Shown here: positions 30,965 to 36,793 of the stretch, one piece after another
Position numbering within the stretch: the stretch's first letter is position 1
Layout of the letters: each line of letters starts with the position of its first letter
Origin: Opitutia bacterium
GTDB taxonomy: Bacteria; Verrucomicrobiota; Verrucomicrobiia; Opitutales; T3Sed10-336
Length of the DNA: 64,000 nt
Assembly: GCA_003558065.1 (NCBI GenBank)
Contig: PWMU01000079.1
Location: 1 to 64,000 of the forward strand
Reading direction: 5' to 3'
Program-made: the position numbers and the translations under genes
Notes under the pieces: model-generated
Told to the model about the DNA's origin: nothing
The model's input: only the letters and a program-made list of their open reading frames with translations
Databases searched by the model: none

Positions 30965-30993
30965 TTGACAGGCGATCGAATTGCGCCTGCAAT
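30965..30993 (+). promoter_or_regulatory. Putative promoter of the GspE-like gene
   Basis: TTGACA (30965-30970) and TGCAAT (30988-30993) are separated by 17 bases, 24 bases before the chosen ATG. The -35 is perfect, the -10 weak. Confidence 0.35.
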
Positions 30994-31016
30994 TGGCCGG
31001 AAGAGAAATCGTGTTC

Positions 31017-32576
31017 ATGGTTATCCCCGAAGTAGCTGCTTTCCTTCAGGAAGATGCGATCATTGTCCTCTTGGCCTTGGCGGCTTACCTTATCTGGGTA
31101 TCGTTGGTAGCTTTCACTTCGCAGGCGGGCGGGCTGCCGCCGCGCCGCCGGGAGTTGGCGAATCTCCTGTCACTGGTGGCGGGGCCGGTGGGGTGGACGA
31201 TGCATTTGGTAAACTGGTTCCGGCATCGGGGGAGCATCGATGACGGAGAGGATGCGGCATCAGCCGCACCGCCCGGCGGCGCCATTAAAATGAAACGGAC
31301 CGGGGAGTCGGGGTGCGTCGAGCACGAGGCGCCGGCAAGTTCCCGGCTCATGTCGAAGTCAAAGAGAGGGTGGTGGTTCTTTTCATTCTGGCGCAAAGAT
31401 CCCGAGGAGGCGGACAGCGAGCTCCTGCATCGGATGATCCTTGAGGCCATCAACCAGGACGCCACGGACATTCATTTTGAACCCCGCGACGACCACTACC
31501 TGGCCCGGTTTCGGGTCAATGGCATCCTTCGGAATTACAAGAAATTCCACTCGACCACCGGCGAGCACTTTCTGGCGATTATCAAAGTTATGGCCTCATT
31601 GGATGTCGCGGATAAAGCCAGGGCCAGAGACGGTCGTTTTGAATGGGTCGACAACGATGCCGGTTATAAAATCGACACCCGTGTTTCGATATCGCCCTCG
31701 TTTCGCGGGGAAAAGCTGGCGCTGCGTTTTTTGAACCGGCCGTCGGCCAACGTCGATATTGACTCGCTCGGGATGCGCGAGCCCATGAAGAAGGCGTTGA
31801 AGCGGGCGATCCGGCACCCGGAAGGGTTTATTCTGATCGCCGGAACGACGGGGTCGGGCAAGACGACGACGGCCTACAGTATCCTCAACCTGGTGGCGGG
31901 GCCCTCGGTCAATACGATCACCATTGAAGATCCTGTCGAGTATTCGCTTCCCAACGCAACTCAGATCGGGGTGAATCCGTACCGGGGCATCACTTTTGAG
32001 GAGGGGTTGACCACCGTGCTTCGCCAGGATCCGGACGTGATTTTTATCGGCGAGATGCGCGATCCGAATTCATTCAAGACGGGTATTCGGGCGAGCCTGA
32101 GCGGTCATTTGGTGGTCAGCACCATGCACGCGCGCGATACGGTGCATATTTTCGCCAGCCTTCGCAATATGGGCATTGAAGAGTCAAGCCTGATCGCGTC
32201 CGTAAAGATGGTTGTCGCCCAACGGCTGGTGCGGTTGCTCTGTCCGGATTGCAAGGAAGTTGAGGAGGAGGTCGATGACGAATCGTTGGAGTTTCTGGAG
32301 ATGGATTCCGGCGAAGACTCGCCGCTGTATCAGCCGGGGAGCGGCTGCGAAACATGCTACGAGTCCGGCTTCGTGGGTCGGACCGGCGTCTTCGAATACC
32401 TGACCATGGACCGTGTGGTGAAAGAATGGTTGGAAAAAGGCGGGGCCGCCAGTGAATTGAGAGCGCAGTTGAAGGAGAAAGGTATGTGGCGGTTGCACGA
32501 CGATGCACGGGAAAAAGTGCTTTCCGGGGAGGTCTGGCTGCAGGATGCAATCCGTTCGGTCGGGTTTGATGAATGA
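31017..32576 (+). CDS. GspE/PilB-type secretion ATPase with membrane N-terminus
   Basis: A 519-residue protein. Residues about 1-60 contain one or two hydrophobic helices (DAIIVLLALAAYLIWVSLVAF) in place of the usual soluble N-terminal domain, then a basic linker. From about 130 it is a canonical type II/IV ATPase: SDIHFEP-like DATDIHFEPRDD, Walker A GTTGSGKTT (about 276-284), Asp box EDPVEY, Walker B with FIGEMRD (about 346), His box STMHARD, and a Cys4 zinc site (CPDCK and CETC). It would power pilus assembly or secretion. The stop overlaps the start of the next gene by 4 bases. No pilin, GspF or GspD genes are nearby. Confidence 0.85.
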   Translation: MVIPEVAAFLQEDAIIVLLALAAYLIWVSLVAFTSQAGGLPPRRRELANLLSLVAGPVGWTMHLVNWFRHRGSIDDGEDAASAAPPGGAIKMKRTGESGCVEHEAPASSRLMSKSKRGWWFFSFWRKDPEEADSELLHRMILEAINQDATDIHFEPRDDHYLARFRVNGILRNYKKFHSTTGEHFLAIIKVMASLDVADKARARDGRFEWVDNDAGYKIDTRVSISPSFRGEKLALRFLNRPSANVDIDSLGMREPMKKALKRAIRHPEGFILIAGTTGSGKTTTAYSILNLVAGPSVNTITIEDPVEYSLPNATQIGVNPYRGITFEEGLTTVLRQDPDVIFIGEMRDPNSFKTGIRASLSGHLVVSTMHARDTVHIFASLRNMGIEESSLIASVKMVVAQRLVRLLCPDCKEVEEEVDDESLEFLEMDSGEDSPLYQPGSGCETCYESGFVGRTGVFEYLTMDRVVKEWLEKGGAASELRAQLKEKGMWRLHDDAREKVLSGEVWLQDAIRSVGFDE

Positions 32577-33040
32577 TGACCCCCATGCTGACACAGATTC
32601 TCGTGCTGGTGGTGCTCCTGCTGCTTGTTTTGGTGGCCGTACAGAAGGCCTCTGAGGAGGGCTTTTTCACCTCGCTGTGTACGATGGGGGTGCTTTATGC
32701 CGCCTACCGCTTCGCCTACCTGCAGTGGGAACAGACGTACGAGTTGTTGGCGCGTAATCTCGATATTGATACAGCAAGTGCTGTTTCGGCTTCGTACTGG
32801 ATCGGGTTCTTTCTGGTTATTCTTCCGGGCATGCTTTACGTGCGATTGCTCACCCGGGAAAAAGTACCGTTTCCCCGGCAGATCGAACGATGGGGATCGA
32901 TGCTGGTTGGAGCGGTGTCGGGCCTCCTGTTGTTCGGGGTGGTCGCGAATTCGCTCACCCGCTTCGGTTTTTACGAGGGGCATCTGCAGGTGCCCATGCG
33001 CAACTTCAGGGTACTGCTCGATCTGATTGAAATTATTTAG
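32573..33040 (+). CDS. Small multi-pass membrane protein of unknown function
   Basis: A 155-residue hydrophobic protein with about three to four membrane helices (TQILVLVVLLLLVLVAV; SYWIGFFLVILPGMLYV; GSMLVGAVSGLLLFGVVAN). The pattern is reminiscent of CvpA-like proteins but too weak to assign. Its ATGA overlaps the stop of the GspE-like gene, so the two are translationally coupled and may form a membrane complex together. Confidence 0.7.
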   Translation: MMTPMLTQILVLVVLLLLVLVAVQKASEEGFFTSLCTMGVLYAAYRFAYLQWEQTYELLARNLDIDTASAVSASYWIGFFLVILPGMLYVRLLTREKVPFPRQIERWGSMLVGAVSGLLLFGVVANSLTRFGFYEGHLQVPMRNFRVLLDLIEII

Positions 33041-33167: not shown

Positions 33168-35117
33168 ATGGCCCGAAAGAAAAAGGACTCCCGGAAACGG
33201 CAGCAGCGCCTCCAGGCCCGGCGACAGAAAGAGAAGGAGAAGGGGAAGCGAAGGGCGCGCTCCGGCCCGAGCGGGACGGGAACTCTCGGAGGCGTGCGGG
33301 AGATTTCCCCCGAGGAATTGGCGGCTGCGTATGTCGATCCGCCGGCTTCGCGCGAAAAGGGAGCGCGGCGGCCGGCGGAAAAGCGGCGCGGGCGCCCCCG
33401 TAAGCCGGTGACGCAAGTCCCGTCGGGTGAACCTGCCGGCGGATCCGGAAGGGGACCGGACGAGCGGGAACTGTCTCCCCATGCGATTGAGCGCTCCGGG
33501 CGGTACCGTCACTGGGCCGGTGTCTGCGCCCGAATCCGCGAGCAGGCGGTGGACGCGGATGGGAACTTCCGTTTGTCCCGTCTCGAACGGAGACTTCGGC
33601 ATTGGCTCTATCGGGCGCGTCTGCGAAAGCTGAAGGGGGAGTTGCGTTCCTGGCAGATTACGCTGGTGGAAGAGACCGGCTACGATTGGACGGTAGCCGA
33701 GCGCCAGCGCGAACGCAAGGAGCCGGTCAAGAAGAAGAAACGCCCGAAGGAAAAGCTTCCGGAGAAGAAAACGCCGATCTGGGAGGAGTGGGTCGGGCGT
33801 ATCCGGCAGGCCGCGGCGGAGCAGGAGTACGATTTCTTCCACCTTCGGGATCCCGCGCTGCGCCGCTGGCTCCGCAATAGGCGTGCCGAATACAGAAGGG
33901 GAGAATTGCGTCCTGAAGTCCACGCGGCGCTCAAGGGGATGGGATTCGACTGGGACCGGACGGAGCTTTCAGACGGTGCTTACGAGGTCTGGGCGAAAAA
34001 CCTCGAGGCGTACCGGGAACTGGTTCGCGCGGTGGGGAAGGGGGCGGTCCCGGACAAGAAGAAGTTTTACGGACTCTACGTCTGGTTCGGGCGGCAGCGT
34101 TGGTTGTATCGGCGTGGAGACCTGTCCGTGAGGAGGAAACGGGCTCTGGACGCCGCGGGTTTTCCATGGAGTGAGCGACCGATGGAGACCCGCCGGTGGT
34201 GGGAGTTTTTTGACCGGTTGAAGGCGTTTCATCGCAAGTACGGGCAGGCGAATATCACGCAAACCGATCCCGGGGATCCGTCTCTGGGAAGATGGTTGGC
34301 CCGGCAGCGGAGGGCTTGCCGTCAAGGCCGCCTGTCGCCCGCGCAGGAACAGGCGTTGGACTCCCTCGGTATTGATCCGAATCCGCGGCCCGGGCACGGG
34401 GGCGGTGTCCGGGTGGAAACGTCCCGGTCCCTGCAGGACGGCCTATGGCTGCGGCGTTACGAGGAACTCGCGGTCTACTGTGGAAACGAGCACGGGGGAA
34501 GGCTTCCGGACCCGCGGCGCCTTCCCGGCCGTCTCGAGCGGTGGCTCGCCGCCCAGCGACGGTGCCGCAGGAAGGGCAGGTTGAATGAGCGGCAGATCCA
34601 GATGCTCGACGAGCTGGGAATGGCCTGGGATTTACCCGCCCTCCGGGAGGTCCGCTGGCGGTCGCGATACGAGGAACTCAAGCGCTTTGAGCAGGGCCGG
34701 GGACACACCCGCGTGCCCTCCGACGAAGGTGCTGCCGACCTGGCGGCGTGGGTGGAACGGCAGCGTTTTCGGTACCGGCGCGGCCGGCTCCGGGAGGACC
34801 GGAAGCGGCTTCTCGATGAAATCGGTTTCTCATTGGAACTGGAGGAAAAACCTTCCGCCCAATGGATGAGGCACTACGAGGAACTCAAGGACTTCCGCCG
34901 TGAACACGGTCACTGCCGCGTGCCTCGCCAGTACCCGCCGAATCAGGGGCTCGCGGAATGGGCCGCGCAACAGAAGCAGCGCCATAAAAACGGCCTACTC
35001 AAACGGGTTCACATCGACTGGCTCGAGTCGATTGGATTTTCCTGGGCGGTGCCGCGGGCCAAAAAGGACCGGGGTTCCGGGAGCCGGCGGAAATGGCGGA
35101 AGGGATCCGGAACCTGA
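33168..35117 (+). CDS. Stand-alone array of seven helicase-associated (HA) domains
   Basis: A 649-residue basic protein. The first 105 residues are Lys/Arg-rich with an AT-hook-like GRPRK. Then seven degenerate repeats of 60-70 residues follow at about 111, 203, 270, 340, 425, 495 and 564, each with the pattern W..Y..L..F...HG...VP...L..W...QR..YRRG.L......LD..GF.W. This is the helicase-associated domain (PF03457), which usually sits C-terminal to DEAD/SNF2-type helicases and is thought to bind nucleic acid. No helicase motor is present here or next door. It probably binds DNA or RNA. It converges with the thioredoxin-like gene. Confidence 0.85.
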   Translation: MARKKKDSRKRQQRLQARRQKEKEKGKRRARSGPSGTGTLGGVREISPEELAAAYVDPPASREKGARRPAEKRRGRPRKPVTQVPSGEPAGGSGRGPDERELSPHAIERSGRYRHWAGVCARIREQAVDADGNFRLSRLERRLRHWLYRARLRKLKGELRSWQITLVEETGYDWTVAERQRERKEPVKKKKRPKEKLPEKKTPIWEEWVGRIRQAAAEQEYDFFHLRDPALRRWLRNRRAEYRRGELRPEVHAALKGMGFDWDRTELSDGAYEVWAKNLEAYRELVRAVGKGAVPDKKKFYGLYVWFGRQRWLYRRGDLSVRRKRALDAAGFPWSERPMETRRWWEFFDRLKAFHRKYGQANITQTDPGDPSLGRWLARQRRACRQGRLSPAQEQALDSLGIDPNPRPGHGGGVRVETSRSLQDGLWLRRYEELAVYCGNEHGGRLPDPRRLPGRLERWLAAQRRCRRKGRLNERQIQMLDELGMAWDLPALREVRWRSRYEELKRFEQGRGHTRVPSDEGAADLAAWVERQRFRYRRGRLREDRKRLLDEIGFSLELEEKPSAQWMRHYEELKDFRREHGHCRVPRQYPPNQGLAEWAAQQKQRHKNGLLKRVHIDWLESIGFSWAVPRAKKDRGSGSRRKWRKGSGT

Positions 35118-36052: not shown

Positions 36053-36793
36053 CTATCGGGAAAACTCGTCGATCGCGGTTCGCGTCGCCAGGTTCAACGC
36101 CTCTTTCCGGAGTGCGAGGGCGTACCTGCTGGGGGTTTCAAAGGTGTACGAGAGGTGCGGATACAGCTTCAGGTGATAGATGGCCTCCGGCCAGTGCCTG
36201 GGCTCATCGGCTTCCGGCCTGTGGTGGATCAGGCCCGGGGCGGTCACGTAGTGATCGTCGATTCGGGCGTTCGGTTCACGTGGGATGATTGTCTCGACCT
36301 GTTCGAGAATCCGGCCGGCAAGCCCAGGGGCGCCGGAGGTGTTGATTTCGTAAAGGTAGAAGCCCGTCGTCTCCCAGTCCTCATGCAGGGAGAGGTAGAG
36401 GTCGTTGGGGGGCTGCGCTTCGAGCCACTTCCGGTGAGCGCGAACTTCCGCGGTGCGCGGGTGGCGGTAATCCCGGTTTAAATCGATGCCCTCGGGGTTT
36501 TCGCGTGTCCCTGAGTCCCAGCTTCCCGGATTCAGCAGAGGGCAGAGAGTCCAGGTGAAACGGTCGTCGAAAAAGCCGGCTTTCACAAGTTCGAAGAGGG
36601 TGAGGGGACCGGCCGGCTCGTCGCCGTGAATCCCCGCCGAAAGGTAGATCCGTTCCCGTGGAACCGGCGCCGGGCGGGTCAGTGCGAGCAGCGGGAGACC
36701 GTGGGCCTCTTCCAGAGTTTCCGTCGAGAAGCCCGCTGTCCGGGCGAGCGCTCGAAATTCTTCCAGCCATTCCTGTGTCTTGGGTCTTTCCAT
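36053..36793 (-). CDS. M14-family zinc carboxypeptidase/succinylglutamate desuccinylase-like protein
   Basis: A 246-residue metallopeptidase-like protein. Zinc motif GIHGDEPAG (HxxE) near residue 55, DLNRDY (Arg binding), SLHED with the third zinc His, and the catalytic Glu in YTFETPSRY are all visible. This matches compact M14 enzymes such as MpaA, which cleaves murein peptides, or AstE-like deacylases. No signal peptide, so cytoplasmic. Transcribed towards the thioredoxin-like gene but separated by about 140 bases. Confidence 0.8.
   Translation of the reverse strand: MERPKTQEWLEEFRALARTAGFSTETLEEAHGLPLLALTRPAPVPRERIYLSAGIHGDEPAGPLTLFELVKAGFFDDRFTWTLCPLLNPGSWDSGTRENPEGIDLNRDYRHPRTAEVRAHRKWLEAQPPNDLYLSLHEDWETTGFYLYEINTSGAPGLAGRILEQVETIIPREPNARIDDHYVTAPGLIHHRPEADEPRHWPEAIYHLKLYPHLSYTFETPSRYALALRKEALNLATRTAIDEFSR

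Follow-up and report, generated by a model that had tools for sequence, protein, structure and literature searches.

Domains of the helicase-associated (HA) family raise a particular question when they fill a protein that carries no helicase, namely what such a protein is and what it might do. One such gene lies in the 64,000-nucleotide stretch of Opitutia bacterium DNA analysed here, which we refer to as the window. The original prediction, made by eye from its letters, described seven tandem HA copies behind a basic, AT-hook-like N-terminus and proposed a free nucleic-acid binder.

The protein is a tandem array of seven HA domains

PF03457 (HA) was the sole Pfam family reported in the 649-aa protein at up to E = 10, scoring 222.2 bits (E = 6.3 × 10−67) over six stretches, and NCBIfam held no family matching it. 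A genome-wide PF03457 search (4.13 Mb, 197 contigs) placed six matches in the frame at 33168-35117, the genome's only HA locus; five exceeded the curated cut-off of 28.4 bits and the sixth was a half-copy at 33846-33947. We also built an HMM from 21 HA repeats taken from other proteins (cut by pattern, with a few extra residues in two of the 21), and this model found seven copies, scoring 7.8, 18.0, 23.6, 49.7, 27.7, 55.4 and 72.7 bits for copies 1 to 7. Copy 1 is only marginal by sequence, because its 7.8 bits compare with a top score of 6.3 bits among 200 shuffles of residues 1-265. By sequence, five copies are therefore full, another is recognised over only half its length, and copy 1 is degenerate; the HA consensus W...L...G(H).VP...L..W...QR....G.L...L..GF.W is present in the array, with copies 1 and 2 matching it only partially. 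Linkers of 6-35 residues join the modules. A promoter scan of the locus found none.

An AlphaFold2 model computed from an alignment of seven sequences (mean pLDDT 71.5, pTM 0.26) contained exactly seven consecutive three-helix units at residues 111-621, copies 1 and 2 included, together with a basic helix at residues 2-31 and a low-confidence segment at 32-99. Since the pTM is only 0.26, the relative placement of the units is unreliable. A separate model of copies 6-7 repeated the three-helix pattern (mean pLDDT 82). Foldseek returned no match at E ≤ 0.001 for either model; the expected 2kta was not returned either, and these searches are thus uninformative about the fold. The predicted count of seven is borne out by our HMM and by the modeled units, with Pfam recognising six stretches, and the description of the copies as well diverged and the array as old holds because their mutual identity is 18-40%.

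Table 1 Features of the HA-array gene (positions in the window).
Feature	Position	Strand	Details
Gene for stand-alone HA-array protein	33168..35117	+	649 aa, ATG start, net charge +67
N-terminal basic tail, aa 1-110	33168..33497	+	Predicted basic helix at 2-31, disorder after
RGRPRK, AT-hook-like core, aa 74-79	33387..33404	+	Common to window, G001 and G597; not in 9 other orthologues
HA copy 1, degenerate	33498..33692	+	7.8 bits (HMM of 21 repeats); three helices (AlphaFold2)
HA copy 2	33777..33953	+	Sequence recognises C-terminal half; Pfam, own HMM, AlphaFold2
HA copy 3	33972..34169	+	Pfam, own HMM, AlphaFold2
HA copy 4	34179..34373	+	Pfam, own HMM, AlphaFold2
HA copy 5	34413..34628	+	Pfam, own HMM, AlphaFold2
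HA copy 6	34632..34835	+	Pfam, own HMM, AlphaFold2, two-copy model
HA copy 7, best-matching copy	34857..35045	+	Pfam, own HMM, AlphaFold2, two-copy model

The gene is intact and under purifying selection

In a draft genome of 197 contigs, a motorless array might be one piece of a split or mis-assembled helicase gene. The total open frame, HA gene included, spans only 673 aa, so that no in-frame helicase is possible upstream. Its upstream neighbours instead encode a CvpA-like protein (PF02674, slightly under the cut-off) and a type II/IV secretion ATPase (GspE-like), its downstream neighbour on the opposite strand encodes a thioredoxin-like protein, and no helicase appeared among the Pfam-scanned neighbours. 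Orthologues in independent assemblies repeat this architecture. Given the closed frame, the unrelated neighbours and this recurrence, we rejected a split or mis-assembled helicase as extremely improbable, and the helicase-free composition claimed for the protein stands.

The nearest orthologue (G001, PXDC01000053.1) is 68% identical; it shares the start and has an almost identical end. For this pair dN/dS was ~0.14 (at a dS of 1.6, near saturation), and three further pairs gave 0.16-0.21. The HA-array gene is real and under purifying selection.

We compared the neighbours of 12 array loci by blastp and found little except the array in common between families. The most nearly shared neighbour was an AstE/M14-like gene, present in family f1 and in one f4 genome (G079), and one protein was common to G051, G520 and G597, several kb from the array. 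As no partner is conserved across families except the AstE/M14-like gene in two of them, the array plausibly acts alone. The AstE/M14-like gene occupies 36053-36793 on the minus strand of the window; it is close to the array there and in G001, and ~6 kb off in G079. At 30981-33040 the GspE/PilB-like ATPase gene overlaps that of the CvpA-like membrane protein, a pair that is also adjacent on G001 contig C286, apart from the HA array of that genome.

The array belongs to a patchy family within Opitutales

A profile built on the last two copies was run against 372 genomes of the order. Matches at E ≤ 1 × 10−3 occurred in 25 genomes, and 12 of these matched at E ≤ 2.2 × 10−40, the best of the remaining genomes reaching 2.7 × 10−27. 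The 12 strong-matching genomes span GTDB families f1, f4, f11, f22 and f23, and those family records that bear a name come from Opitutales or Verrucomicrobia MAGs. Each member has six to nine recognisable HA stretches, weak ones counted, and all eight of the 12 long members that were Pfam-scanned contained HA only. When the last two repeats were put into a tree (32 rows, 131 columns), a branch with support 89/93, recovered in 92% of bootstraps, set the 12 long stand-alone members apart from HA-helicases, two-HA proteins and plasmid proteins; many inner branches were open and several outgroup rows were long. On the sequence evidence, the array protein belongs to a single-group Opitutales family, distinct from the HA-tailed SF2 helicases of the order.

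Occurrence of the family is patchy: PF03457 matched in 7 of 88 relatives, and a same-genus genome at 96% completeness had no array. Such occurrence (12/372) argues against a core chromosomal function. Compared copy by copy, orthology was clear in G075 for copies 4 and 7 alone, and in L064 for just the last copy; the remaining copies showed no preference for the same-numbered partner. The G051 genome carries a second C-terminal array fragment of 90 aa (L068:993-1265).

HA domains occur both on and off helicases

In a sample of the phylum, 13 of 387 genomes carried HA, all in open frames no longer than 860 aa, and proteins Pfam-scanned from five of those 13 were all HA only. Within the order, one Pfam scan found four HA-helicases of 994-1625 aa, each with ResIII and Helicase_C domains and with 5 to 12 HA stretches; another protein (1165 aa as cut) had Helicase_C and HA, and three shorter ones (443, 432 and 503 aa) had HA only. 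Query matches were present in 188 of 72,556 plasmid records; eight HA proteins scanned on seven plasmid stretches comprised five with helicase domains (one with Helicase_C only) and three without, from Rufibacter (7 HA), M. intracellulare (8 HA) and Curtobacterium (3 HA). Pseudomonas accounts for 108 of the 188 plasmid records, and most of its records in the listed spread sample carry a DEAD/DEAH helicase annotation. A viral origin was considered and set aside: among 50,697 phage records there was one match, unannotated, and viral contigs yielded no confirmed relative, which is weak evidence because the peptides used were query-specific.

Both forms, helicase-borne and stand-alone, are common; the survey covered a plasmid collection, a phage collection and one phylum. 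The premise that HA domains normally end large helicases was therefore overstated, although HA-helicases do exist in the order, and the stand-alone form is not new, since database examples have no helicase in the same protein. Two of these resemble the window protein in carrying tandem PF03457 domains with no helicase domain: Rufibacter tibetensis WP_062546108.1 (567 aa, 7 HA) and Mycobacterium intracellulare WP_023363516.1 (620 aa, 8 HA), both annotated 'helicase associated domain-containing protein'. They differ, however, in being plasmid-borne, in coming from other phyla (Bacteroidota and Actinomycetota) and in having better-preserved copies, and neither falls inside the Opitutales group in the last-two-repeat tree. 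Verrucomicrobiota two-HA proteins of ~255-280 aa are also stand-alone and from the same phylum, but have a conserved HA-free C-terminal extension (...YIQYNGxG...) and form a separate tree group. In several genomes, loci of this two-HA family (L052:6734-7516, L053-L057, L059-L061) share a region with carA and guaA. The sole PDB sequence with a clear HA match was 2KTA ('putative helicase'; E = 1.3 × 10−6 alone, 4.4 × 10−13 with the repeat profile), which differs in being a 74-residue single-domain chain of one HA, from a protein named putative helicase. A 339-aa protein at L058:5315-6334 ends in one HA domain, the only family that Pfam reports there; its N-terminal part resembles, by eye, what we take to be a REP-associated transposase. 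At L102:3789-6060, HA pieces run across several short frames in what looks like a decayed HA gene.

HA-tailed SF2 helicases (Aneurinibacillus L070; Opitutales L094-L097) share the HA module and its basic helix 2 with the window protein but possess the ResIII/Helicase_C ATPase motor that it lacks. The array could serve as a detached accessory that acts in trans, guiding an SF2 helicase from another locus to its substrate, given that L094-L097 of this order join HA modules to SF2 cores and that the genome holds general ResIII-type proteins (10 matches). We consider this unlikely: an Aneurinibacillus HA-helicase core, the one query used, found no match in the genome while its positive control matched; none of the scanned neighbours is a helicase; and the stand-alone family lies apart from helicase tails in the repeat tree. 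Alternatively, the array might be the decaying remnant of a helicase that has lost its motor, as the degenerate copies 1-2 and the fragmented HA frames at another locus of the order (L102) would allow. With twelve orthologues forming one group (support 89/93), N-terminal tails common to most of them and purifying selection in four pairs, a remnant is very unlikely; ancestral loss of a motor is possible, and current decay is not seen.

Basic second helices and a basic tail suggest nucleic-acid binding

We examined how charge is distributed over the three helices of each unit. Helix 2 of copies 1 to 7 carries +7, +5, +4, +5, +5, +2 and +2, and summed over the window protein helix 2 contributes +30 over 106 residues, compared with +5 for helix 1 and −4 for helix 3. 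Nearly all the charge sits in helix 2 in every HA class. Across 32 proteins, 177 of the 191 HA domains scored had a helix-2 charge of +2 or more, domains with more than three gaps in that helix being excluded (long stand-alone 67/76, helicase-borne 73/75, other stand-alone 25/28, two-HA 12/12). The near-constant Q-R pair of the domain also belongs to helix 2; of 199 aligned domains, 165 have the R and 145 the Q. Net charge was positive in all 12 orthologues, ranging from +26 to +70.

The N-terminus is basic, as predicted, with a candidate AT-hook-like core. Of the 12 orthologues, nine combine a K-rich N-terminus with one of two motifs: six have LARPPK after a K-rich start and three have RGRPRK. 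Neither motif is present in the three f22 members. We take RGRPRK to be an AT-hook-like core; cores of this type are DNA minor-groove motifs. Pfam reported no AT-hook, presumably PF02178, in the 649-aa protein at E ≤ 10, and shuffling the N-terminal 110 residues 20,000 times produced RGRP[RK] in 216 cases (~1%).

From the basic helix 2 and the K/R-rich N-terminus we infer multivalent, electrostatic binding of nucleic acid, and we lean towards a stand-alone binding protein that would be mostly sequence-independent. Each of the seven three-helix modules would present its strongly basic second helix, and the flexible basic tail, AT-hook-like in some members, would add contacts. DNA or structured RNA could then be held by charge along several contacts, with little sequence specificity and without ATP, the array binding as these modules presumably do on SF2 helicase tails, where they would act as a grip. 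The charge pattern lends indirect support to the free nucleic-acid binder originally proposed, which is plausible. No result spoke for the originally suggested roles as a ruler or a decoy. Positive charge alone does not establish binding, as basic helices also serve protein contacts; furthermore, no ligand was seen with the sole solved HA structure found, 2kta, and copies 1-2 lack much of the consensus.

The AT-hook-like core would make DNA a somewhat likelier ligand than RNA, but this argument is weak in view of the core's ~1% chance occurrence and the silence of Pfam. An RNA- or ribosome-associated factor is a less probable, though not negligible, reading: K/R-rich tails such as KKRKxKLARPPKR may suit RNA binding too, and the charge pattern cannot tell the two ligands apart, but no RNA-binding family was matched by Pfam and 3 of the 12 orthologues carry the minor-groove-type RGRPRK core. 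It is also rather doubtful that the family has a chromatin-like, architectural role specific to Opitutales, its HA modules having been freed from helicases to engage DNA at several contacts and bend, bridge or compact it; the tail would be AT-hook-like in some lineages and bear a LARPPKR motif in others.

Discussion

We found no description of HA-domain function, and no paper that we recognised as being about stand-alone HA arrays, in the literature searched, which left most subscription journals outside. A passage of PMC12787238 concerns HA2, a different domain from HA. Stand-alone HA arrays are already known in other bacteria, and the window protein adds another, from Opitutales. Such arrays separate the HA module from the motor and so would allow a direct assay of whether HA binds nucleic acid; the array protein is valuable as a clean system in which to test HA function.
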